From Phocaeicola massiliensis B84634 = Timone 84634 = DSM 17679 = JCM 13223 (lineage in GTDB: Bacteria > Bacteroidota > Bacteroidia > Bacteroidales > Bacteroidaceae): a stretch of DNA of 64,000 nt. The notes under the pieces are model-generated. The model was given only the letters and a program-made list of their open reading frames with translations. It did not search any database and was not told the origin of the DNA. Below, in pieces: positions 21,214-32,972 of this stretch; within the stretch, counting starts at the first letter, position 1, and the number at the start of each line of letters is the position of its first letter. Position numbers and translations under genes: made by a program. The stretch is taken from the NCBI RefSeq assembly GCF_000382445.1, contig NZ_KB905472.1:2689278-2753277 (forward strand), written 5' to 3'.

Positions 21214-21221
21214 CAAAATTA
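21214..21221 (-). promoter_or_regulatory. hisS -7 box
   Basis: The minus strand reads TAATTTTG, 29 bp upstream of hisS. The matching -33 region would fall in or beyond the attachment site at 21225-21240. Confidence 0.6.
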
Positions 21222-21224
21222 CAC

Positions 21225-21240
21225 AAAATCTCTGGAATAA
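21225..21240 (+). repeat. Putative attL core
   Basis: AAAATCTCTGGAATAA, 246 bp upstream of the integrase start, pairs with 32622-32637 with one mismatch. The heterology within the core fits Bacteroides tyrosine integrases that tolerate mismatched crossover regions. Confidence 0.6.
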
Positions 21241-21462
21241 CCTCGAAAAACGGGAAAAATGACGCTAAATGACTTAATGTCAGAGTAGTTACGGTGTCAA
21301 ATGATGACAAGCCGAAAAATCGGAAAACGCAAAGAAAAGCGGATTTAAGAAGAAGAATGGTTTGCAAATCATTACCCGTGAAAGAGTAAGATTTAACATA
21401 TGAGAGATGCTATTGCACCGTTTGTCACCGATTTGCGTATCAAGGTCTAACTCGTTGATATT

Positions 21463-21470
21463 TAACTTTG
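21463..21470 (+). promoter_or_regulatory. Integrase -7 box (TAACTTTG)
   Basis: TAACTTTG followed by CA lies 16 bp before the integrase ATG. The leader would be very short. Confidence 0.55.
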
Positions 21471-21486
21471 CAAACAAAAAACGAGT

Positions 21487-22707
21487 ATGGCAAGAAGTAC
21501 ATTCAAAGTGCTGTTCTACGTGAACGGCAGCAAGGAGAAAGACGGTATTGTCCCCATCATGGGACGAGTGACAATCAACGGTACTGTGGCGCAGTTCAGT
21601 TGCAAGCAGACCATCCCGAAAACCCTTTGGGATGTGAAAGGCAACCGAGCCAAAGGCAAGAGTGCCGAAGCACGGAACATCAATCTGGCATTGGATAACA
21701 TCAAGGCGCAAATCATCAAGCACTATCAGCGCATATCCGACCGAGAGGCATACGTAACGGCTGAAATGGTGCGCAATGCCTACCAAGGGGTAGGAAGCGA
21801 GTATGAGACACTGATAAAGGCTTTTGACAAGGATTGCGCCAACTTCCTGAAACGTGTCGGCAAAGACCGCAGCATCGGCACATACAAGGTAATGGTGAGG
21901 GCAAGGAACTATGTCGCAGCCTTTATCAAGTCATTCTACAGACGGACGGATATGTCCATGCTGGAACTTACGCCCGACTTCATCAAGGAGTTTGCGGCTT
22001 ATCTTACGGCTGAACGGGGACTGAAAAACGCCACCATCTGGCTGAACTGCATGTGGCTGAAAGGCGTGGTCATGCGTGCGCACTATAACGGACTGATACC
22101 GAGAAATCCGTTTGCGCAGTTCCATATCAGCCCGAATGTTAAGGAACGGGAGTATCTGACAGAGGACGAAATCAAAAGAATCATGGCGCACGAGTTTGAC
22201 AACCCCACCCTCGCATTGGTGCGGGATCTGTTCATTTTCGCCTGCTTCACCGCCTTGTCTTTCGTGGATATGAAAGAACTCACAACGGACGAAATAGTGG
22301 AGGTGAACGGTGAGAAATGGATATTGTCGAAACGGCATAAGACAAATGTCCCGTTCCAAGTGAAGCTGCTGGATATTCCCTTGCAGATAATCGAACGGTA
22401 CAAGTATCTGTCGGAAGACAGGCTGGTTTTCGGAAAAATCAACTATTGGACGATGTGCAAACAGCTGAAAAAGGTAATGACGGAATGCGGAATAGAGAAG
22501 CAAATCTCCTACCATTGCGCACGTCATACGTTTGGAACACTGGCTCTTAGCAAGGGAATGCCCATTGAAAGCGTGAGCCGTGTGCTGGGACACACGAACA
22601 TTGTCACGACTCAAATCTATGCGAAGATAACCACACAGAAACTTGACAATGACCTGACGATGTTCGGCAACAAGCTGAACGCATCGTTCGGAAGTGTAAC
22701 CCCATAA
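21487..22707 (+). CDS. tyrosine recombinase/integrase of the mobilizable element
   Basis: The 406-residue protein has an N-terminal arm-binding domain (ARSTFKVLFYVNGSKEKDG), a SAM-like core-binding domain at about residues 105-200 and a C-terminal catalytic domain. His343 and Arg346 lie in YHCARH, His369 in LGHTNI, and the nucleophile Tyr378 in TTQIYAKI. The position of the first catalytic Arg carries Ser (FTALSFVDMKEL), as is known for IntDOT-type Bacteroides integrases. It would integrate and excise the surrounding element at the direct repeats. It lies at the left end, as usual for such elements. Confidence 0.95.
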   Translation: MARSTFKVLFYVNGSKEKDGIVPIMGRVTINGTVAQFSCKQTIPKTLWDVKGNRAKGKSAEARNINLALDNIKAQIIKHYQRISDREAYVTAEMVRNAYQGVGSEYETLIKAFDKDCANFLKRVGKDRSIGTYKVMVRARNYVAAFIKSFYRRTDMSMLELTPDFIKEFAAYLTAERGLKNATIWLNCMWLKGVVMRAHYNGLIPRNPFAQFHISPNVKEREYLTEDEIKRIMAHEFDNPTLALVRDLFIFACFTALSFVDMKELTTDEIVEVNGEKWILSKRHKTNVPFQVKLLDIPLQIIERYKYLSEDRLVFGKINYWTMCKQLKKVMTECGIEKQISYHCARHTFGTLALSKGMPIESVSRVLGHTNIVTTQIYAKITTQKLDNDLTMFGNKLNASFGSVTP

Positions 22708-22719
22708 TCAAGCATAGCC

Positions 22720-23088
22720 ATGAAACGAAGCATCATCACAACAGATGGTAACGGCAACATCATCATGCCGACCGACATAGGCGCAACCGCCATGAGCGAA
22801 TGGGAACTTTGCGCCCTGTTCGGAGTAACCGCCCCGACATTCCGTGCAGGGCTGAAGGCTCTTTGCAAGAGCGGAGTTTTAAGGGAATACGAGATAAGGC
22901 GAAGCATACGGGTATCCGATAATTGCAGTATGGAGGTTTACAACCTTGAAGCGATAGTTGCCCTTGCTTTCTATATCAGCACATTCGGAGCGGAACGGGT
23001 ACGCAATGCCGTTCTTGAAAGACTGTACCTGCGAAAAGAGAAAGTATGCTATCTCCTTTCGCTTGTCAATTCTTCAAATGATATGTAG
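22720..23088 (+). CDS. small helix-rich protein next to the integrase, function unknown
   Basis: The 122-residue protein starts 12 bp after the integrase stop and is probably co-transcribed with it. The middle (WELCALFGVTAPTFRAGLKA) reads like a helix-turn-helix, followed by a stretch with YNLEAIVALAFYISTFGAERV. A DNA-binding or excision-control role is possible because of the position beside the integrase, but this is an inference. I do not recognise a named family. Base composition matches the integrase, so it belongs to the element backbone. Confidence 0.7.
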   Translation: MKRSIITTDGNGNIIMPTDIGATAMSEWELCALFGVTAPTFRAGLKALCKSGVLREYEIRRSIRVSDNCSMEVYNLEAIVALAFYISTFGAERVRNAVLERLYLRKEKVCYLLSLVNSSNDM

Positions 23089-23143
23089 TAGATTGTAGAT
23101 TAGATAAATAGTAGGAACGCAATGAACACCTGCTATTTATCTT

Positions 23144-23998
23144 TTATCGTTTTTGCTCCTCTATAAATACATCTATTTCTCCTAAATAACCAATTTCTTT
23201 AGGAAGTACGAACATATTGTTCGGATTTACATATTTTCGAAAATGGTCTTCAATATCGGAAATTTCCAAATCTTCAATGCTTGTATTAGTATTAAATCCC
23301 ACAGGTTGAATATGACACAATTTCCAATTAGGCAAAGCATAACTACCTAATGGTTTGGTGTACTTGGCATTTGCCTTAATTTCCTTTGTTGCCATAAACA
23401 CCATTGGTAACTCTTTTTGGCTCAACAGCTCTTTGATTTGCGATAAGGTGAACACTATCCCTTTTAGAACATTATTATACACCCAAATAGCTACGGTATT
23501 ATCTGAAACGATAATCTCTCTTCCACAGGGATGCACAAAGGATTGACCTCGTTTATTTGTTTCTTTGCGAATAATCAATGGCATATCTTTGTCTGCAATC
23601 CATTTCTCTATCAGATTATTCCAATTTTCAAGTACTTCAACATCTATCTGAGGGTTATTAGGAGAATTACGCCACAATGTACCTATCTCCTTAATTTTCA
23701 TTCGGATTTCTTTCCCTACCAAATCTTTTGTGGGCATACATCTTTCTGACTGCCTATATGGTGTAGGTTGTCCCGATATTAAAAATTGCATAGCTCGTTT
23801 GGGAGGATATTTACAACTATACAATCTGCCCTCTTGATAGCTCTTGGTTTCAATAACATTTGAAAAGACACGATAGAAATCAGCTTTTGTAAACTTGAAT
23901 GTTTCATCTGGAATATGCACAATAAATGAATCATTATCATTCAAAGGCTCAATCAAATCAGCCTTGAAACATAATCTACTACTTGTGTATTCTACCAT
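23144..23998 (-). CDS. unknown 284-residue protein, possible HNH-like nuclease
   Basis: This is the only gene of the element on the minus strand. It is richer in A+T than its neighbours and has its own promoter (TACCTTTG, 24029-24036 on the minus strand), so it looks like separately acquired cargo. There is no signal peptide or membrane segment. The C-terminal stretch NWKLCHIQPVGFN followed by NPNNMFVLPKEIG resembles the spacing of His and Asn residues in some HNH nucleases (HI-x-P, then an Asn-rich turn before a hydrophobic strand), but the first His of the fold is not certain. A restriction or defence role is speculative. Confidence 0.6.
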   Translation of the reverse strand: MVEYTSSRLCFKADLIEPLNDNDSFIVHIPDETFKFTKADFYRVFSNVIETKSYQEGRLYSCKYPPKRAMQFLISGQPTPYRQSERCMPTKDLVGKEIRMKIKEIGTLWRNSPNNPQIDVEVLENWNNLIEKWIADKDMPLIIRKETNKRGQSFVHPCGREIIVSDNTVAIWVYNNVLKGIVFTLSQIKELLSQKELPMVFMATKEIKANAKYTKPLGSYALPNWKLCHIQPVGFNTNTSIEDLEISDIEDHFRKYVNPNNMFVLPKEIGYLGEIDVFIEEQKR

Positions 23999-24028
23999 AT
24001 ACTAACTATTCAAACTAATTATACCGCA

Positions 24029-24036
24029 AAGGTACT
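24029..24036 (-). promoter_or_regulatory. -7 box of the 23144-23998 gene (TACCTTTG)
   Basis: TACCTTTGCGG on the minus strand lies 31 bp upstream of the start and is a close match to the strongest Bacteroidetes promoters, including both tRNA promoters in this window. Confidence 0.7.
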
Positions 24037-24173
24037 CGAAATAAACCAAATGAGAGAATTTCTTTCGTTTATAATTGTCTTGAGTTTATAGCACACATCA
24101 AATTCATCTTCCCATAGTACTTTATTCACTATTCTGCTATGATTTGCGTAGCAACTTATCCGTCAATTACTTA

Positions 24174-24181
24174 TATTTTTG
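24174..24181 (+). promoter_or_regulatory. -7 box of the replication/mobilisation genes (TATTTTTG)
   Basis: TATTTTTG lies 36 bp upstream of the helicase start. It could drive the helicase, small gene, primase and perhaps relaxase as one transcript. Confidence 0.6.
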
Positions 24182-24216
24182 TAGCTGACATTTTTTGAAC
24201 CTAAAAGTATTTGAAA

Positions 24217-25458
24217 ATGGAAGCTAACAAAGTAACATTAAGCCATAAGCTACCATCGGATGGCGGCATGGCAAAGGAAGAATTTATCCGTGTCGGGACA
24301 ACGCTCTACAAGATTGTGGAGCAACCGAGACTGAACGGAGGGTATGTGAAGAAACGCATCGCATGGAACAACGAGACCCTGCGACAGGATTACGGCAAGG
24401 ATTACATCGGCAGCGTTCCCAAGTATGACGGCTTCTGCACAGTACCCGAACACATCGGCTACCGTTCCGTGGTCGGCAAGTTCCTTAACCTCTACGAACC
24501 GATAGACCACCGACCGCAGGAGGGCGATTTATCGCATATCCAATCTTTGGTACGGCACATCTTCGGGGAACAGTACGAGTTGGGGATGGACTATCTGCAA
24601 CTGCTCTACCTGCAACCAATTCAGAAGTTGCCTATCCTGCTGTTGGTGTCGGAAGAACGCAACACGGGCAAAAGCACCTTCCTGAACTTTCTGAAAGCCC
24701 TTTTTCAGAACAATGTGACTTTCAACACCAACGAGGATTTCCGCAGCCAGTTCAATTCCGACTGGGCTGGCAAGTTGCTTATCGTGGTGGATGAGGTGCT
24801 GCTCAACCGCAGGGAGGATAGCGAGCGGTTGAAGAACCTCAGCACCACACTTTCCTATAAGGTGGAAGCCAAAGGCAAAGACCGTGACGAGATTGCGTTC
24901 TTCGCCAAATTCGTGCTGTGTTCCAACAACGAGTATCTACCCGTAATCATAGACGCAGGGGAAACACGCTATTGGGTGCGCAAGATAGACCGCTTGCAGT
25001 CCGATGATACCGACTTCCTGCAAAAGCTGAAAGCGGAGATACCCGCCTTTCTTCATTTCCTGCAACACAGACAGCTATCCACCGAAAAGGAAAGCCGGAT
25101 GTGGTTCAACCCCACATTGCTGCATACAGAAGCCTTGCAGAAGATTATCCGTAGCAACCGCAACCGGCTGGAGATAGAGATGTCGGAACTGCTGCTTGAC
25201 ATTATGGTTGCAATGGATGTAGATAGCGTTTCATTCTGCCTTAACGACCTTGTCGTACTGCTGGTACACTCGCAGGTAAAGGCGGAAAAGCACCAAGTGC
25301 GTAAGGTGGTGCAGGAGTGCTGGAAACTAACACCTGCACCAAACGGGCTTACCTACACCACCTATCAGGGCAATTACAACAGAAGTTGTCACTATGAGCC
25401 GATAAAGAGGGTGGGACGCTTCTACACCGTCACAAGGGAGCAACTCGAATCCCTGTAA
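24217..25458 (+). CDS. SF3/primase-helicase-type replication ATPase of the element
   Basis: The start is taken at the ATG 24217 rather than the TTG two codons earlier, giving 413 residues. The P-loop lies in LLLVSEERNTGKST at about residue 150. The Walker B-like strand LLIVVDEV follows at about residue 190, with an Asn-ended strand KFVLCSNN further on. This is the pattern of SF3-like helicases carried by Bacteroides mobile elements next to a toprim primase. It would unwind the element for replication after transfer. It is followed by a small gene and the primase. Confidence 0.82.
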   Translation: MEANKVTLSHKLPSDGGMAKEEFIRVGTTLYKIVEQPRLNGGYVKKRIAWNNETLRQDYGKDYIGSVPKYDGFCTVPEHIGYRSVVGKFLNLYEPIDHRPQEGDLSHIQSLVRHIFGEQYELGMDYLQLLYLQPIQKLPILLLVSEERNTGKSTFLNFLKALFQNNVTFNTNEDFRSQFNSDWAGKLLIVVDEVLLNRREDSERLKNLSTTLSYKVEAKGKDRDEIAFFAKFVLCSNNEYLPVIIDAGETRYWVRKIDRLQSDDTDFLQKLKAEIPAFLHFLQHRQLSTEKESRMWFNPTLLHTEALQKIIRSNRNRLEIEMSELLLDIMVAMDVDSVSFCLNDLVVLLVHSQVKAEKHQVRKVVQECWKLTPAPNGLTYTTYQGNYNRSCHYEPIKRVGRFYTVTREQLESL

Positions 25459-25488
25459 TACTATCATTTTTCTGTTGAATTGTTGAAT

Positions 25489-25713
25489 ATGGGTATAAAT
25501 ACAATGACAATAAACGATATACATTCTCAACAAAATCTCAACAAGCCAAAAGAGAAGTTGAGAGACCACCGATACCCGTTTGTGGATTTCTCTTTTGGTG
25601 AGCGGTTTGTTGAGAAGATGTTGAGAGGTTACGAGGCTGTATATAAACATATTACATCAACAGTTCATCAAATCAACAAATTTTCATCAACTTCAAAACC
25701 GTATGTAATATGA
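25489..25713 (+). CDS. small protein coupled to the primase, function unknown
   Basis: The 74-residue protein (ATG at 25489; an upstream TTG is less likely) overlaps the primase start by four bases in an ATGA arrangement, which indicates translational coupling. It is basic and polar. There is no motif I recognise. Its fixed position between helicase and primase suggests a replication accessory role, an inference only. Confidence 0.6.
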   Translation: MGINTMTINDIHSQQNLNKPKEKLRDHRYPFVDFSFGERFVEKMLRGYEAVYKHITSTVHQINKFSSTSKPYVI

Positions 25714-26681
25714 CAATCCAAGATGTAAAGCAAATCAAACTGGCAGACTATCTGCAAAGTCTGGGCTATACGCCTGTAAAGCAACAAGGCAGGAATCTGT
25801 GGTACAAATCACCGTTACGGGAAGAAACGGACGCATCGTTCAAGGTAAACACCGAGCTTGAAAAATGGTACGACTTCGGCATCGGCAAAGGCGGTAATAT
25901 CATTGCATTGGCAGCGGAACTCTACCATTCGGAAGATGTAGCCTATCTGCTGAAACGCATAGAGGAGCGGACAGCATACATCCGCCCTGCATCGTTCTCT
26001 TTTGGCAGACAGCATTCCGACAATCAGCCTTATCAGGGATTAAGTGTTGGTGAGTTGTCCTCTCCTGCTCTTATAGCCTATCTGCAAGAAAGGGGAATAA
26101 ACATCGGACTTGCCAAAAGAGAATGCAGGGAGCTTCGGTTTATGAATGCCGACAAACCCTATTTTGCCATCGGCTTTCCGAACATGGCAGGGGGATATGA
26201 AGTGCGCAACAGATACTTCAAGGGATGTGTCGCCCCGAAAGACATCACCCATATCCGACAGCAGGGCGGACAACGATGTATGTGTTACCTGTTCGAGGGG
26301 TTCATGGATTACCTTTCATTCCTTACCATCCGAGTAGAAAACAATCCGCAACACCCGCGATTGGACACACAGGACTATATCATATTGAACTCCGTTTCCA
26401 ATCTTGCAAAAGCGGAAAGCATATTGGAGACCTACATCCAAGTCGGCTGTTTCCTTGACAACGACACGGCAGGACGGAACACCTGCAAGAAGCTGAAAGA
26501 GAAGTTTGGGGAACGGCTGCTTGACAAGTCAATGTACTATCGTGAGTATAAGGACTTGAACGACTACCTGTGCGGTAAGCCCTTGTCCCAATCGGCAGAG
26601 CCGATAAAGGAGAAGAAGCAAGTCCAATCCGCAAGGCGGATGATGCAGCCACCGAAAAAGAAAGGGGGATTTCATCTGTAA
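25710..26681 (+). CDS. toprim-domain DNA primase of the element
   Basis: The 323-residue protein has an N-terminal region resembling the DnaG zinc-binding fold (YKSPLREETDASFKV, WYDFGIGKGGNIIALA) but without the zinc cysteines. A toprim domain follows, with the catalytic Glu in YLFEGFMDYLSF at about residue 200 and the acidic pair in CFLDNDTAGRNT at about residue 250. It would make primers for element replication together with the helicase upstream. Its Lys-rich C-terminus (PPKKKGGFHL) is typical of this group. Confidence 0.88.
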   Translation: MTIQDVKQIKLADYLQSLGYTPVKQQGRNLWYKSPLREETDASFKVNTELEKWYDFGIGKGGNIIALAAELYHSEDVAYLLKRIEERTAYIRPASFSFGRQHSDNQPYQGLSVGELSSPALIAYLQERGINIGLAKRECRELRFMNADKPYFAIGFPNMAGGYEVRNRYFKGCVAPKDITHIRQQGGQRCMCYLFEGFMDYLSFLTIRVENNPQHPRLDTQDYIILNSVSNLAKAESILETYIQVGCFLDNDTAGRNTCKKLKEKFGERLLDKSMYYREYKDLNDYLCGKPLSQSAEPIKEKKQVQSARRMMQPPKKKGGFHL

Positions 26682-26701
26682 TATGCACGTCCGCTCTCCC
26701 A

Positions 26702-26904
26702 AGGTATTTAGACAGAAATACCATAGCTCAATAGGGCGTTTTCTTCACGCATTACTCCGTAACGCTAAAAACACCCTATCGAGCCAAAGGGAAATCCCTT
26801 TGGAAACCCTGTGCAAACGAGAGCAGAAGCCAAACTCGTTTGGATTATGCCGAGTGCAGCAATGGTTCATTTGCATAATAAACCCTGTGAGCCGATGCCA
26901 CAGG
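26702..26904 (+). other. Cluster of inverted repeats upstream of the relaxase, probable oriT
   Basis: Five inverted repeats lie in 200 bp: GGTATTT/AAATACC (26703-26722), ATAGGGCGTTTT/AAAACACCCTAT (26731-26779, one mismatch), the near-perfect palindrome CCAAAGGGAAATCCCTTTGG (26784-26803), CCAAACTCGTTTGG (26830-26843) and CCTGTG/CACAGG (26884-26904). The region is noncoding and ends 43 bp before the mob gene, where MobV-type origins of transfer usually lie. The nick site cannot be named from sequence alone. Confidence 0.65.
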
Positions 26905-26947
26905 CAGAGAGAAGAAACATAACGATAACCGCAAAAATAGGAATAAT

Positions 26948-28255
26948 ATGGGATATTTTTCATTAGACATAAAGAAAGCAAAGGGTACATCGGACACCAC
27001 GCAGTCCGACCATATAGAGAGAAAGATAATACCTAAAAACGCAGACCCGACAAGAACGCATCTGAACAGGGTGCTTGTCGAATACCCCGATGGCGTTCAC
27101 GGCAGGGATGAAGCGATTGCCCACAGGCTGAACACGGCAGGCATCAGACGGAAAATCACGCACGACCAAGTCCGTGTCGTTCGGGTGGTCTTGTCGGGTA
27201 CACACGAGGACATGATGAACATACAGGAAAAAGGAGAACTCGATGAATGGTGCAGCGACAGCATCCAATGGCTGCAAGCCACATTCGGCAAAGACAATGT
27301 GGTTGCCGCACATCTGCACATGGACGAGAAGACTCCGCACATACATGCAGCCGTTGTTCCCATCGTGACGGGTGAAAGGCGCAAAGCCAAGAAAGAGCAG
27401 ACGGACGGTAAGCGCAAGTACCGCAAGAAAACAAATTCCGTCCGTTTGTGTGCCGATGACCTGTTCAACCGCCAGACCTTGGTCGCCTACCACGACAATT
27501 ACGCAAGGGTGATGGCGAAATACGGATTGCAGCGTGGGGTACGGGGTTCGGAAGCACGGCACACCACCACCATGCAGTATTATAGGGACTTGAAAAAGAA
27601 GAATGAAGTCCTCGAAACCGAAACCAGACTGTTGCAGGAAAAGAAGACCGAAGCGCAGGAGGAATTGAGACAGGTAAAAGCAGAAATCCGTACTGACAAG
27701 CTCAAATGTGTAGCCACCGATACGGCAACCGCCCTTGCAAGCAGTGTGGGTTCTCTTTTCGGAAGTGGAAGAATGAAATCGTTGGAACGCAGGAACGAGG
27801 ACTTGCAAGACCGCATCCTTGAACTTGAAGACGAAGCCCGACAACGGGAACGGCAACAAGCCGAACAGATACAGGAGATAAGAAACGCTTACGAGCAACA
27901 GCACCGCAAGCTGTCGGAGTTTACGGATTTTGTCAGACGCTACTTTCCGTATGTGGAGAAACTGATGCCTGTAATAAATTTCCTGCGTGAACGTTTGGGC
28001 TTTAATGATGGGATAATCAGAAGACTGTGCGAGTTCAAGGAGGTCGGAATAAAAGGTGAACTCTATTCTTCCGAATTTAACCGAAGTTTTGATACCCGAC
28101 ATTCCGTCTGCTCCATCAAACAGGATGAAAACGGTAAATTCGATTTCAAGATAGACGGGGTTTCTCACGTGAACTGGTTCAGAAAGAAGATGAATGAGTT
28201 CAGAGAAGCCATCGGAATACCGAAGCCAAGACAGAATAGAAGTATGAAACTGTAA
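26948..28255 (+). CDS. MobV-family relaxase (Pre/Mob)
   Basis: The 435-residue protein carries the MobV metal-binding motif HLHMDEKTPHIH at residues 122-133. The N-terminal region (HIERKIIPKNADPTRTHLN) matches Pre/Mob proteins. A long coiled coil lies at about residues 215-330, rich in Glu, Gln and Lys. The relaxase nicks the origin of transfer and leads the strand into the recipient using a helper conjugation system. No coupling protein or type IV secretion genes are present, so the element is mobilizable and not self-transmissible. The long reverse frame opposite it is a shadow. Confidence 0.93.
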   Translation: MGYFSLDIKKAKGTSDTTQSDHIERKIIPKNADPTRTHLNRVLVEYPDGVHGRDEAIAHRLNTAGIRRKITHDQVRVVRVVLSGTHEDMMNIQEKGELDEWCSDSIQWLQATFGKDNVVAAHLHMDEKTPHIHAAVVPIVTGERRKAKKEQTDGKRKYRKKTNSVRLCADDLFNRQTLVAYHDNYARVMAKYGLQRGVRGSEARHTTTMQYYRDLKKKNEVLETETRLLQEKKTEAQEELRQVKAEIRTDKLKCVATDTATALASSVGSLFGSGRMKSLERRNEDLQDRILELEDEARQRERQQAEQIQEIRNAYEQQHRKLSEFTDFVRRYFPYVEKLMPVINFLRERLGFNDGIIRRLCEFKEVGIKGELYSSEFNRSFDTRHSVCSIKQDENGKFDFKIDGVSHVNWFRKKMNEFREAIGIPKPRQNRSMKL

Positions 28256-28260
28256 ATCAA

Positions 28261-28299
28261 AAAAATCCGTGATAGTAGAATGGTATATCACGGATTTTT
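28261..28299 (+). terminator. Terminator after the relaxase gene
   Basis: AAAAATCCGTGATA pairs with TATCACGGATTTTT, ending in T residues, 6 bp after the mob stop. It separates the backbone from the cargo. Confidence 0.85.
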
Positions 28300-28301
28300 C
28301 A

Positions 28302-28309
28302 TACTTTTG
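28302..28309 (+). promoter_or_regulatory. -7 box before the structured segment (TACTTTTG)
   Basis: TACTTTTG lies directly after the mob terminator. It would start a transcript near 28316, just upstream of the long hairpin at 28350-28520. Confidence 0.55.
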
Positions 28310-28349
28310 TATTGGATTGAGGCAACTCTTTCCAAGACATACGAAAAAA

Positions 28350-28520
28350 AAGAAGCGTTATGCTTATCTTGTACTTGAAAACGTAGGAAATTTTCAATTA
28401 GATGCAAGGATAGCATAGTGGTTCTCACGCATATAGCGTGGGCTGCTATTGTTACATCTGCATCTATGGTTTCCTACGACCTTCAAGTAAAGAATGTGGC
28501 ATACAGTTCCACGCTTCTTT
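28350..28520 (+). ncRNA. Candidate structured noncoding RNA or long 5' leader
   Basis: There is no open frame here, but a 171-nt nested hairpin can be drawn by hand: AAGAAGCGT (28350-28358) with ACGCTTCTT (28511-28519), TATGC with GCATA, ACTTGAA (28373) with TTCAAGT (28482), CGTAGGAAA (28382) with TTTCCTACG (28470), AGATGCA (28400) with TGCATCT (28459), GATAGCA with TGCTATT, and CTCACGC with GCGTGGG around an ATATA loop. A -7 box precedes it and a lipoprotein gene follows 46 bp later. It could be a free RNA, a regulatory leader or a DNA structure. I do not recognise an Rfam family. Confidence 0.5.
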
Positions 28521-28566
28521 AATAGGTTAAATTCCTTTGGGAACTGGAGATTAAAAAATGTAGTGT

Positions 28567-29064
28567 ATGAGCGTAATAAAAAAATGGTTATTAGCTATTT
28601 GTGCCATTATATTAATGAATGGATGTGCACCACTTCGAATGCCTGTAATAGTAAGGAATGCTCCTATTGAAATGTATAAATACGCATACATTTCCCCAAC
28701 AAAGGAATTGACATCAAGCACAGGAGGTACATATGGTGGGCAATACGGTATCTATGGTTCTTCAACCACCAAAAGTGTTAATCCAAGTGATGTAATAGCA
28801 GGAATACTAATAAAAGAAGGATATATCATATTACCCGAACTTAAACCCGAATTATCTAATGAAACTCTAATCGTCAATTATGGTGAGAGTGGCAGGCGTA
28901 ATAGAGGTTTAGGTTACACAATAGAAGTAACTATACAGTTTAGCTCTGCAAAAACCAATGAAATGATATGTTCTTGTACAGCAGAAGGACAAGGCGAAAC
29001 AGAAGCTGATGATATCCGTCAAGCCATTAGAAGAGCCTTAACAAGTTTATTCCCTGAGAAATAA
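28567..29064 (+). CDS. lipoprotein of unknown function (cargo)
   Basis: The 165-residue product has a lipoprotein signal ending in MNGC at about residue 20. The mature part has a Gly/Tyr/Ser-rich loop (GGTYGGQYGIYG) and a pattern of beta strands and a final amphipathic helix (DIRQAIRRALTSLF), reminiscent of small envelope lipoproteins such as DUF4136. That resemblance is weak. It is AT-rich like the rest of the cargo. It follows the structured segment by 46 bp and precedes a second lipoprotein by 19 bp, so the two form an operon. Confidence 0.7.
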   Translation: MSVIKKWLLAICAIILMNGCAPLRMPVIVRNAPIEMYKYAYISPTKELTSSTGGTYGGQYGIYGSSTTKSVNPSDVIAGILIKEGYIILPELKPELSNETLIVNYGESGRRNRGLGYTIEVTIQFSSAKTNEMICSCTAEGQGETEADDIRQAIRRALTSLFPEK

Positions 29065-29083
29065 CCCAATAATACGACAGATT

Positions 29084-29743
29084 ATGAAAAAGTTTTTAGT
29101 ATTATCCGCTTTAGTTATAACTTCTTGTACACTCTCTAACGAGGAAAAAGCTGAGAAATTGGTTAAAGAGACGCTTAAAGACTATCTCTATCACCCTGAT
29201 TCTTATGAGCCAATATCAACAAGAGTTGATAGTATGTTTATTGATGTAACTACTATCGAGCCTATTATGAAAATTAGCGATGAAATCAAGAATTTGATAT
29301 CTAAAATAAATCGCTGTGAGAGAAAAATTGAATCAGCAGAATCTTCTATGGATATTTTTGCCCCCAATGGTTATTCTTCTCAATACTCTCGTGGAGAGTA
29401 TTCACGAGCAAAAAAAGAAAAGGAAGAAGCCAAATCTGATTTGAACAAATACACCAAGAAACTTTCAGAACAACTTGCTTTTCTAAAAGAAAATGTCGCT
29501 AAATATCACAAAGGAGAATTTACAGGTTGGGCAGTAAGCCATAGATTTAGGAGTCTTAATGGAGCAGGCTCAATGACCATTCCGGGAGAAATGATTTTCT
29601 TTTGCGATGAAGAATTTACAACTTGTGGGGGTTATGAAACAGATAAGTTTGAGGACTTCGTAAAAATTTTAAACGCAGTAGATGAAGCAACTTCGGATGA
29701 AGATGTAATAGATTATTTTAAAGAAAATAATTTTTTGCTATAA
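29084..29743 (+). CDS. lipoprotein with coiled coil, function unknown (cargo)
   Basis: The 219-residue product has a short lipoprotein signal ending in ITSC (Cys15), then an N-terminal helical part with EEKAEKLVKETLKDYLYHPDSYEP. A charged coiled coil follows at about residues 75-140 (ISKINRCERKIESAESSM). The C-terminal domain has paired Cys in FFCDEEFTTCGG. I do not recognise a named family. It is co-oriented with the preceding lipoprotein. The helicase gene starts 67 bp downstream, so it could share the transcript. Confidence 0.7.
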   Translation: MKKFLVLSALVITSCTLSNEEKAEKLVKETLKDYLYHPDSYEPISTRVDSMFIDVTTIEPIMKISDEIKNLISKINRCERKIESAESSMDIFAPNGYSSQYSRGEYSRAKKEKEEAKSDLNKYTKKLSEQLAFLKENVAKYHKGEFTGWAVSHRFRSLNGAGSMTIPGEMIFFCDEEFTTCGGYETDKFEDFVKILNAVDEATSDEDVIDYFKENNFLL

Positions 29744-29810
29744 ATTCCGTATTTCCGTAGTACGCTAATTTTTATGCAAATCAAATATTATCAACTGCTA
29801 TTTTTTTAAT

Positions 29811-32426
29811 ATGCAATGGGCGTTTATTTTGGTTATTTGTATAATTGCTATTTCGGTTATTGTAATAGCGATGGTACGAACACGCCTAAAAAACAAATCC
29901 AAAGAGCTTGCAGAAAAGCTAAACCATATATCTGCATATAGCGAGAAATCAAATTATGAGCAAGCAAGAGAGAGATTATCGGCTCTTAATGAGGGGGCGT
30001 TTATAGATATTCCCTCAGACTTAAATAATGGCTTTTATGGCAGGGTAATCTCCGCAACGCAAGAAAAAGATTTCATCAATCATTATAAGGTGCATTTCCA
30101 AGAGGCATATTCACTTCTGAAGAAACTTGAAGCATTTAACATCACTCCATCAGAAACCATATCCAAATTCATTAACGACTTTGGAAGAATCAACAAACTT
30201 GTAAAACAACACAATGATGGTGTTATAACCTTTCTACTTGACACGCACAGGGACTTTTTTGACCATTGCCTAAAATACCCATTAGACAAGCAACAAAGAC
30301 GCTCAATTGTTTCAGAAGAGGATAATTGTTTAGTAGTCAGCAGTGCAGGTAGTGGTAAAACCTCTTCAATTGTCGGTAAGGTTAAATATCTCACCGAAAT
30401 CAAGGGTATAGCACCTGAAAGAATTTTACTTATCAGTTATACCAACAAAGCAGCAGCCGAACTAACCGAAAGAATGGCGACCAATGGATTGAAAGGCTAC
30501 ACATTCCATAAGTTAGCCATTGATATTATAGGCAAAACGACAGGTACAAAACCATCTATTTGCGACAATACAGATTCATTGTTTGTAGATATATATCACA
30601 AATTGTTAGATAAATCGTCTTTCAAGAAAAGTATAGTGGAATACTTTATTGATTACCAAACGAATGAAGCTGATTGGGAACAACGCAAGAATGAAAGACG
30701 GGAGCAATTATCAGGACTAAAGAATGTGCAGCTAAAGGCGATGTTTCCCGATATGGACGGCAGAGCCATATATGTGAGAAGTGAACAAGAACAAAAAATA
30801 TGTTTTGCTTTGTCCTCGCTGGGAGTGAAATTCAGATATGAAGAACCATACGAACATCAATTAGCAGATGAGATGCACTCACAATATCGTCCCGACTTCT
30901 CAATATATTTTAAGCAAGGAGGAGTAACCAAACGCATCTATCTTGAACATTTCGGAGTTGATGAACACGGGCTTGTTCCTGCTTGGTTCGCAAAAGATAA
31001 GGGTATAACCTACGAAGAAGCCAATCAGAAATACAATGATGGTATAACTTGGAAGAAAACTGCTCACGAGAAATTTGGCACACAACTTTTAGTAACATCA
31101 AGTGCAGATTTTCATTATTCTGATATTAGGGATAAACTCCGTAAACTATTAGCTGAAGCAGGTGTACCAATTCAAGAAAAGACCGATGAGGAGTTATACG
31201 ATTTAGTACTACCCAAAGGCAGCAAGCAGGAAAAGGCGTTTATACGACTTGTTGTTACTTTCGTTACATTGGTAAAATCAAGTTGTAAATCAGTTAAAGA
31301 GGTTTTGAAACAAGCCAAAAATGCAGATGATGAACGAAGTGTGTTTATCATCAAGAATATATTTCAACCTGTATATGAACGCTACATAAATGCGTTAAGC
31401 GATAGTAACCAAATTGATTTTACCGATGCTATTCTTCAAGCCACTGAGATATGTCGTACTTCACACCCTGTTGAATATGATTATATCATAGTGGATGAGT
31501 TTCAAGATATTTCTGTTGACCGTTACAACTTCTTGAAAGTATTGCGAGAGGGTAATCCTCCTGCAAAGTTGTATTGTGTGGGTGATGATTGGCAGTCTAT
31601 TTATCGTTTTTCGGGAAGTGATATGGCTCTATTCAATCAATTCCCCGAATATTTTGGAACAACGGAGATAAACAAGATTGAAACGACATACAGATTTGGA
31701 GAGCCTTTGGTTTCTTTATCGTCGAACTTTATACAACGCAATAAAGCCCAAATACAAAAGAATATCCATTCGTTCAGCTCAGAAATGAGAACCGAGTTGG
31801 AATTCTATGCTTATGATAGACGAGATTACTGCAATACGATAGGGCAACTTGTAGCTTCTATTCCATCGGATAAATCAATATTCCTATTGGGGCGTTACTC
31901 TTTTGATGATTACTACCTCTCTTTTATGTACCAATCAATTAAAGAGGGTAATAGATTCTACTATGTGATAGGAGGACGAAAAATAGAGTTTTTAACCGTA
32001 CATAAGTCAAAAGGTCTTGAAGCGGATTATGTAATACTCTTACAATGCAATAAAGATACATACGGTTTCCCATCACAGGTGAGTGACGACCCTGTGCTTA
32101 ACTATGTGCTCACTAAGAGCGACCAATTCCCATACGGAGAAGAAAGAAGATTATTCTATGTTGCAATAACAAGGGCTAAGGTAAAAACGCTTGTATTATA
32201 CGATAAGCGTTTCCCGTCTGTATTTGTGGATGAATTCTTGCACCCCGAAAAGGTGTCAGAAGAAAGCTATGTAAAGCACCCTAACGCCAATAAAAGATGG
32301 ACAAGAAGTGCAGACCAATTTTTATTGAAACTGCACAATGAAGGTAAGAGTGTCAAATATATTGCAAACAAAATGGGTAGAAGTCAAACTTCGATTGTAA
32401 TGCGATTAAACAAACTAAACAAATAG
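29811..32426 (+). CDS. helicase IV (HelD/UvrD-like) with membrane anchor, nuclease-like insertion and C-terminal HTH
   Basis: The 871-residue protein begins with a membrane helix (residues 3-22) and a coiled coil. SF1 helicase motifs follow: Walker A SSAGSGKTSS at about 177-186, IVDEFQDIS at about 560, GDDWQSIYRFSGSD at about 590-603, TVHKSKGLEADY at about 730 and RRLFYVAITRAK at about 780. These match E. coli helicase IV closely. Between motifs, at about residues 355-435, lies an insertion with RPDFSIYF and RIYLEHFGVDE, the D...E-x-F layout of PD-(D/E)XK nucleases. The last 45 residues look like a Myb-type HTH (SVKYIANKMGRSQTSIVMRL). It is the largest cargo gene and plausibly a defence or DNA-processing enzyme; that role is an inference. 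Confidence 0.85.
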   Translation: MQWAFILVICIIAISVIVIAMVRTRLKNKSKELAEKLNHISAYSEKSNYEQARERLSALNEGAFIDIPSDLNNGFYGRVISATQEKDFINHYKVHFQEAYSLLKKLEAFNITPSETISKFINDFGRINKLVKQHNDGVITFLLDTHRDFFDHCLKYPLDKQQRRSIVSEEDNCLVVSSAGSGKTSSIVGKVKYLTEIKGIAPERILLISYTNKAAAELTERMATNGLKGYTFHKLAIDIIGKTTGTKPSICDNTDSLFVDIYHKLLDKSSFKKSIVEYFIDYQTNEADWEQRKNERREQLSGLKNVQLKAMFPDMDGRAIYVRSEQEQKICFALSSLGVKFRYEEPYEHQLADEMHSQYRPDFSIYFKQGGVTKRIYLEHFGVDEHGLVPAWFAKDKGITYEEANQKYNDGITWKKTAHEKFGTQLLVTSSADFHYSDIRDKLRKLLAEAGVPIQEKTDEELYDLVLPKGSKQEKAFIRLVVTFVTLVKSSCKSVKEVLKQAKNADDERSVFIIKNIFQPVYERYINALSDSNQIDFTDAILQATEICRTSHPVEYDYIIVDEFQDISVDRYNFLKVLREGNPPAKLYCVGDDWQSIYRFSGSDMALFNQFPEYFGTTEINKIETTYRFGEPLVSLSSNFIQRNKAQIQKNIHSFSSEMRTELEFYAYDRRDYCNTIGQLVASIPSDKSIFLLGRYSFDDYYLSFMYQSIKEGNRFYYVIGGRKIEFLTVHKSKGLEADYVILLQCNKDTYGFPSQVSDDPVLNYVLTKSDQFPYGEERRLFYVAITRAKVKTLVLYDKRFPSVFVDEFLHPEKVSEESYVKHPNANKRWTRSADQFLLKLHNEGKSVKYIANKMGRSQTSIVMRLNKLNK

Positions 32427-32472
32427 TCGAACTTTTTCTTTGATGTACCTTGTGTGCATCGGACTATTCTAT

Positions 32473-32480
32473 TATTTTTG
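32473..32480 (+). promoter_or_regulatory. Outward-facing promoter at the right end of the element (TATTTTTG)
   Basis: TTG at 32450-32452 and TATTTTTG at 32473-32480, 20 bp apart, face the right end and no gene follows before attR. In a circular form it would read across the joined ends into the integrase gene. The rest of 32427-32621 holds no open frame. Confidence 0.45.
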
Positions 32481-32621
32481 TACACAGAAACGAGTTACTT
32501 GAAAGCAATTCAAGGCAGAACGCAGCATACGGCACAGTTGCCAAGTCATTACCTCAAAATCGGGTAATTCTTCCAAAGTCCTTTGTATAAGGCACAAACG
32601 AAAGTTTTCCAGAATTACGAA

Positions 32622-32637
32622 AAAATCTCTGTAATAA
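32622..32637 (+). repeat. Putative attR core
   Basis: AAAATCTCTGTAATAA matches the left core at 21225-21240 with one mismatch, 195 bp after the last cargo gene. From here to 32998 only the MITE-like element is recognised. Confidence 0.6.
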
Positions 32638-32821
32638 ACGAATAAAAAGGGAGAAAACTCTGATTATGGTTAGCCTCTATTGATCTTAATGCCATTCTTC
32701 CGAAAACGAGCCTGTTTAATCCTCTAATATCTAATAAAGAAACAAAGTGTATTCCAAAGAATTGTAGCTTTTACTAAAAACTCAAGGATATGGGAGGACA
32801 GATATAAGAATCTAAAGAAAA

Positions 32822-32972
32822 TGGGGCTGTCAAAACGTGGATAATGCTATCATTTAGTTCGTAGGGGCGAGGTTCGCTCGCCCGAAAACAGTTTGTTTTG
32901 TGTCTTCGGGCAGGCGAACCCTGCCCCTACAGCTGACGATGGGATAGACCGATTTAGTTTTGACATACTCCC
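32822..32972. repeat. MITE-like palindromic element, copy 2
   Basis: This 151-bp copy of the element at 2894-3045 has ends GGGGCTGTCAAAAC and GTTTTGACATACTCCC and an inner pair GTAGGGGCGAGGTTCG / GGCGAACCCTGCCCCTAC. It lies outside attR, in chromosomal DNA downstream of the protease gene. Confidence 0.85.

Follow-up and report, generated by a model that had tools for sequence, protein, structure and literature searches.

A widespread, apparently undescribed leader RNA heads exchangeable cargo genes in an integrative mobilizable element of Phocaeicola massiliensis

Introduction

Newly gained genes must be expressed in a new host without harm. How gut Bacteroidota might achieve this is the question raised by a block at positions 28302-32426 of a 64,000-nt stretch of the Phocaeicola massiliensis genome (4.65 Mb, Bacteroidaceae-type), which we call the window and to which all plain coordinates refer. 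Behind the relaxase gene of a mobile element the block carries a structured RNA, two lipoprotein genes and the gene of an 871-residue helicase-like protein. Do these parts form one system, or does the RNA serve whatever gene stands behind it? In our description the block forms the cargo end of an integrative mobilizable element and has at its head one copy of a leader RNA that appears to be undescribed; on balance we lean towards the view that the folded leader controls translation of exchangeable cargo.

Fold and covariation of the leader RNA

The GC content falls from 0.515 at 27-28 kb to 0.34-0.38 in the AT-rich right part of the element, which holds a promoter box, the hairpin RNA, the two lipoprotein genes and the helicase gene; a terminator-like hairpin sits between the relaxase gene and the promoter box. 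The region 28302-28556 comprises this promoter and a structured leader with the following parts.

28302-28309, + strand: -7 box TAnnTTTG of the leader promoter
28314-28333, + strand: 5' hairpin GGAuuGAG-GCAA-CUCuuUCC, read from the sequence, with its outer pairs present in 84-88% of copies
28350-28519, + strand: main domain, a long nested hairpin with a conserved apical part, detected by folding energy and covariation
28504-28546, + strand: P7, loop pairing of CAGUUCC (28504-28510) with GGAACUG (28540-28546)
28527-28554, + strand: P8, tail hairpin ahead of the start codon, with GGAACU in its loop

The TAnnTTTG box occupies the same position in 143 of the 151 copies of the leader, compared with 1.2% of random 26-nt stretches. 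The minimum free energy of 28302-28560 is -87.3 kcal/mol, compared with -53.6 ± 4.3 kcal/mol in shuffles (z -7.9). An alignment of 60 diverse copies was used to study covariation and gave a nested consensus of 39 pairs, which are formed in 96.5% of alignment cells as opposed to 31-44% when one side is slid. Cells changed on both sides number 146, above every shuffle (40 ± 5). Because kinship among the sequences inflates counts of this kind, most weight rests on the slid controls and on the distant copies. Among pairs whose commonest type is Watson-Crick, G-U cells outnumber A-C cells by 62 to 20, and this excess points to an RNA of the leader strand rather than to single-stranded DNA of either strand. 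The apical part of the main domain shows very high sequence conservation. The initial annotation, made from the sequence of the window, had described an AT-rich block behind a relaxase terminator with its own -7 box and a nested hairpin, and all three of these features are borne out.

The stem of P8 varies in sequence among copies and keeps its complementarity (own against permuted arms, z 12.3 in 88 leaders); in the window it ends 12 nt ahead of the ATG at 28567. P7 joins the P8 loop (GGRACU) to a CAGUUCC segment near the 3' end of the main domain, and in the same leaders its two sides match far better than permuted ones (z 10.1, with -1.2 and 0.9 for two control segments). Distant copies, which come from other families, show matching changes on the two sides of P7 (TAGTTCC/GGAACTA, AACCC/GGGTT, AGTCCC/GGGACT and ACAGTTCC/GGGACTGT), and both P7 and P8 are retained in distant relatives. 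An additional pseudoknot within the main domain (UCUUGUA with UACAAGGA) looked suggestive by eye and is not claimed, its support being weak: 14 vs 13 overall and 11.7 vs 10.3 in divergent copies.

Distribution and novelty of the leader RNA

A first search of the window genome with 28330-28540 found two clear further copies (94% and 82%), and a covariance model added others beyond these three. Matches are present in 117 of 251 genomes and in 19 of 30 genera of the family. Among the matches listed in a pattern scan of named genomes are Bacteroides, Phocaeicola, Prevotella-type genomes, Alistipes, Muribaculaceae, Parabacteroides, Barnesiella and others. In a draw from the whole phylum, weaker copies turned up with the covariance model in 22 of 345 genomes, chiefly from other families within the class; matches below about 40 bits are uncertain, because the model also gave 16-bit chance hits. 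The Escherichia coli genomes searched contained no match. A phage origin was rejected, with matches in only two phage records and 11 viral contigs.

The 4227 models of Rfam 15 gave no gathering-score match for the window leader or for ten further copies, and evalue-mode scans of three copies found no family. No description of the RNA was found in Rfam or in the searched literature, although it may correspond to an unnamed entry of a survey of human microbiomes that reports 3161 candidate structured RNAs (PMC8040213). This widespread leader RNA thus appears undescribed. Since it is absent from Rfam, genome annotation passes over it, though it is present in nearly half of the family genomes examined.

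Some further observations concern individual loci. Two complete transfer-messenger RNA matches at L120:8983-9984, downstream of a leader copy, stand next to each other, an arrangement suggestive of an element that inserted into the transfer-messenger RNA gene and rebuilt it. Weak leader-like matches in L194, L199, L201 and L202 lie near genes for XRE-type helix-turn-helix (HTH) proteins and adjoin genes for TonB/SusC-like receptors; they may reflect a further use of this RNA.

Position of the leader and the genes behind it

Among copies with room for a gene, 153 of 188 are followed by a same-strand open reading frame (ORF) that starts 0-60 nt past the end of the profile. A T6 run ahead of the start codon occurs in only 9 of 148 leaders, and no terminator was seen between leader and ORF. 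P7/P8 keep a fixed distance to the ATG and end about 10-25 nt before it. The promoter box, the nearby ORF start and the rarity of T6 runs therefore indicate that the RNA is the leader of the downstream gene rather than a separate RNA. Its fixed position and orientation, together with an upstream promoter and no terminator before the ORF, are those of a cis-acting leader.

The first and second genes behind 53 leader copies have no family in common. They include the antibiotic resistance genes blaMUN and ermF, as well as genes for GmrSD, a GIY-YIG protein, HxsB/HxsD, DUF4377, lipoproteins, a trypsin-like protease and an MBOAT protein. CfxA, the other common mobile beta-lactamase in these genomes, was rejected as leader cargo, with only a 28-nt match of chance size; one locus (G226:C6:982180-988642) carries three tandem cfxA copies at a spacing of about 2.75 kb. 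By a crude N-terminal rule, 61% of first genes encode exported or lipoprotein-like products, compared with 30% of other genes (Fisher p 9e-12, not corrected for relatedness), and nearly all first genes of the best distant copies encode signal peptides. A MobV gene is the closest upstream neighbour in only 13 of 104 copies; the leader is therefore not confined to MobV elements.

Proposed role of the leader

In the model that we favour, the promoter with its -7 box would start a transcript about 250 nt ahead of the first start codon. This transcript would fold into the 5' hairpin, the large main domain and the tail hairpin P8, the loop of which would pair back to the 3' part of the main domain to form P7. 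Since P7/P8 end so close to the start codon, the folded leader most likely sets the ease with which ribosomes start on the first cargo gene. The main domain might be the sensing or protein-binding part, that is, a receptor for a protein or a signal, and P7/P8 the output. Because it is independent of the gene behind it, the leader could act as a shared front end behind which cargo is swapped, the cargo here being two lipoproteins and a predicted membrane-anchored helicase-nuclease. A wider generalization falls just short of an even chance in our judgement: the leader would represent a new, gene-agnostic class of regulatory leader RNAs, a shared front end for horizontally moving cargo of unrelated kinds across Bacteroidia that tunes translation and has an older tie to exported proteins.

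Several points weigh against translational control. Transcription into the ORF is our inference. Roughly one copy in five lacks an ORF where one normally lies, and at some loci of the helicase or the lipoproteins just the 5' part of the RNA is kept; having lost the 3' half, these copies show that the fold is dispensable in some cases. The diversity of the genes argues against a metabolite-specific riboswitch. Finally, an expression enhancer, an mRNA stabiliser or an antiterminator would fit the same data.

A general enhancer of this kind, with the 5' hairpin and the main domain shielding the mRNA or rendering RNA polymerase termination-resistant and no switching involved, is the most serious rival, and we regard it as possible, if rather unlikely. 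It would account for the gene-agnostic use of the leader, for a 5' hairpin directly after the promoter and for cargo that includes resistance genes needing steady expression, but the high apical conservation and the covarying loop pairing near the start codon suggest more than a stabilising hairpin. Under translational control, a common structured leader before exchangeable cargo, ermF and blaMUN included, would provide a single handle on many accessory genes, resistance among them, and should the leader respond to a signal, a single experiment would bear on hundreds of loci.

The lipoproteins and the predicted helicase-nuclease

The genes behind the leader in the window are as follows.

28567-29064, + strand: lipoprotein 1 (ORF), first cargo gene of the leader, found in 8 of 251 genomes, mostly without the helicase
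29084-29743, + strand: lipoprotein 2 (ORF), found in 24 of 251 genomes at any identity
29811-32426, + strand: predicted membrane-anchored HelD/UvrD-type helicase of 871 residues, last gene of the block, from family matches and homologues
30774-31160, + strand: predicted EDxHD/Vsr-like PD-(D/E)XK nuclease insertion of the helicase, residues ~322-450, from invariant residues and fold matches

The 871-residue protein contains UvrD domains (2.2e-39) and is closest to DNA helicase IV (NF008276, 2.9e-100), but its score of 336.7 bits lies below the curated cut-off of 543 for membership in that equivalog family. Its N terminus carries a hydrophobic helix and its C terminus a weak HTH (HTH_38, 0.0035), and family members of 32-99% identity occur in many genera. 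Within the insertion, E327, P361-D362-F363, E379-H380-F381, K415 and H419 are invariant in 25 homologues. Modelled alone, the insertion is predicted with high confidence (predicted local distance difference test score, pLDDT, 93) and most closely resembles the homing endonuclease I-Bth0305I (Z 10.6; 2.5 A over 96 residues) and Vsr (Z 9.7); it shows the alpha-beta-beta-beta-alpha-beta core and the conserved acidic residues of PD-(D/E)XK / EDxHD domains. Because the insertion matches EDxHD/Vsr-type nucleases and has such invariant residues, the protein is a predicted membrane-anchored helicase-nuclease.

Both lipoproteins have a signal peptide followed by a Cys, and their genes are 19 bp apart. 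At 75% identity or more, lipoprotein 2 occurs in six of the 251 genomes, in five of which it adjoins the helicase. Each lipoprotein is also found with no helicase nearby, lipoprotein 1 in G080 (82% identity) and lipoprotein 2 in G051 (78%), and helicases of 99% identity lack both in G224 and G087. These distributions mark the two lipoproteins as interchangeable cargo. Of the 13 close helicase loci, 10 encode a small exported protein just upstream of the helicase and in the same orientation, these proteins coming from at least four families in all. Two more small exported families (SEHLTFKG... and QNMWTFI.LDT...) stand in both orders upstream of the helicase at L038:11721-13055 and L045:10345-11529.

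The initial annotation had recognised the two closely spaced lipoprotein genes and a helicase IV-like protein with a membrane helix, a PD-(D/E)XK-like insertion and an HTH, and these assignments stand, the nuclease as a modelled fold. It went on to suggest that the RNA, the lipoproteins and the helicase-nuclease form a single anti-phage or DNA-processing system at the membrane, and named lipoproteins occurring independently of the helicase as evidence to the contrary; the co-occurrence search found exactly such lipoproteins. We consider one such system improbable. The nuclease fold and the exported proteins upstream of the helicase are in its favour, but the parts occur separately and the RNA mostly heads other genes. 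PADLOC identified no system: the helicase gave only generic UvrD matches (GajB, RTasHel), with no GajA or reverse transcriptase adjoining. In Gabija GajB stands beside GajA, and the neighbours here are two lipoproteins. A defence scan of a few helicase-locus neighbours found one AbiEii only, beside one relative. Of the proposed link to the envelope, the recurrence of an exported protein upstream of the helicase holds up, whereas these particular lipoproteins are not fixed partners.

The mobile element and exchange of its cargo

The element that carries the block is delimited by comparison with L038 and L039 from two other genomes, where the same element lies at unrelated sites.

21214-32641, no strand: integrative mobilizable element of about 11.4 kb, shared with L038 and L039, with integrase, primase and MobV families
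26948-28255, + strand: MobV relaxase gene, upstream of the leader (NF041497 1.5e-61; Mob_Pre 6.1e-25)

The block common to the three loci starts at 21214 and ends at 32635-32641, and the flanks past these ends are unrelated. It encodes a tyrosine integrase, a small DNA-binding-type protein, a DUF5906 primase-helicase, a toprim primase and a MobV relaxase; the integrase, the relaxase and the discrete ends identify it as a MobV integrative mobilizable element. Direct repeats flanking the element were looked for and not found.

Between L038 and L039 the identity is 99.8% from the left end through the leader and slightly beyond it, and 99.0% in the rest; what sets them apart is 1.3 kb with ermF, which follows the leader and precedes the start codon of the next gene. 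No clear target duplication was seen at this insertion (L038:10433-11732). The window element shares 96% identity with both as far as 28528 and 98-99% once more from 29808, three bases ahead of the helicase start, and everything between differs. Among 126 copy pairs with a common backbone and different cargo, the breakpoints mostly lie no more than about 15 nt from the end of the leader or inside its last 80 nt; in 44 pairs with common cargo and different backbones, the breaks fall mostly near the leader start. These comparisons single out the leader as the hinge between exchanged backbone and cargo, and either an active part or a mere shared block would fit. Mosaic inheritance inside the RNA, as predicted by internal recombination, amounted to a small gradient only.

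Such breakpoints at the leader ends, and the gain of ermF exactly behind a leader, are what would be seen if the leader acted as DNA, a folded single strand used for recombination or insertion of gene cassettes like attC in integrons. We give this explanation a slim chance. The breakpoints are also expected because the RNA simply is a shared block, and a DNA site sits poorly with the conserved promoter, the excess of G-U over A-C, the constant spacing and pairing relative to the start codon, and the conservation of sequence as well as structure; no integron integrase (IntI) model is named among the top 25 tallied neighbour families. A free-standing, trans-acting small RNA in many copies is very doubtful: the leader has its own promoter and multicopy families such as FopS exist in Bacteroides (PMC11697453), but no terminator separates it from the ORF, P7/P8 continue almost to the start codon, and FopS is built differently, with a single-stranded 5' part and a terminator. 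A miniature inverted-repeat transposable element was rejected on account of the fixed orientation of the leader to the ORF.

Elsewhere in the element, an AT-rich ORF of 284 residues without a family match lies on the opposite strand (23144-23998) between the excisionase-like and primase-helicase genes; it is lost in L038 and L039, where homology ends at 23063 and restarts at 24126. To the right of the element, 32850-32940 contains a long imperfect palindrome (GTAGGGGCGAGG...CCTGCCCCTAC) that may be a repeated extragenic element.

Comparison with known systems

Riboswitches and other structured 5' leaders likewise have a covarying fold that ends just before the start codon, but known classes usually go with a related set of genes, whereas the leader described here heads unrelated ones. 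Bacteroidales-1 (RF01693), the suggested 6S RNA of Bacteroidales, is a long hairpin of similar size from the same order. It was rejected as the identity of the leader, since its one match in the window genome lies at another locus, with no mutual match there; on leader copies RF01693 reaches at best 14 bits, on a distant one. The Bacteroides-1 family was likewise rejected. FopS of B. thetaiotaomicron, which has a single-stranded seed and a terminator (PMC11697453), shares with the leader that it is a multicopy RNA in Bacteroides, but was also rejected, scoring 16.4 bits at the leader against a cut-off of 56.

DNA helicase IV (HelD, E. coli type) is the closest full-length family of the 871-residue protein, which differs from it by the inserted predicted nuclease domain, the membrane helix and the C-terminal HTH. 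The EDxHD endonucleases I-Bth0305I and Vsr have a fold like that of the insertion; unlike them, the insertion is embedded in a UvrD helicase, where its nuclease role is predicted.

A close counterpart of the whole arrangement is the blaMUN-1 genomic island of Bacteroidales, which measures 7.6 kb and also occurs in one E. coli isolate; the portion of its description that was searched goes without mention of the upstream RNA (PMC10989005). As seen in a region of plasmid pBUN1, this island is an element of the same type, with integrase, HTH protein, primase-helicase, toprim primase, MobV and then the leader in that order, and it differs from the window element in its cargo, the beta-lactamase gene blaMUN-1 following the leader where the window element carries two lipoproteins and a predicted helicase-nuclease.

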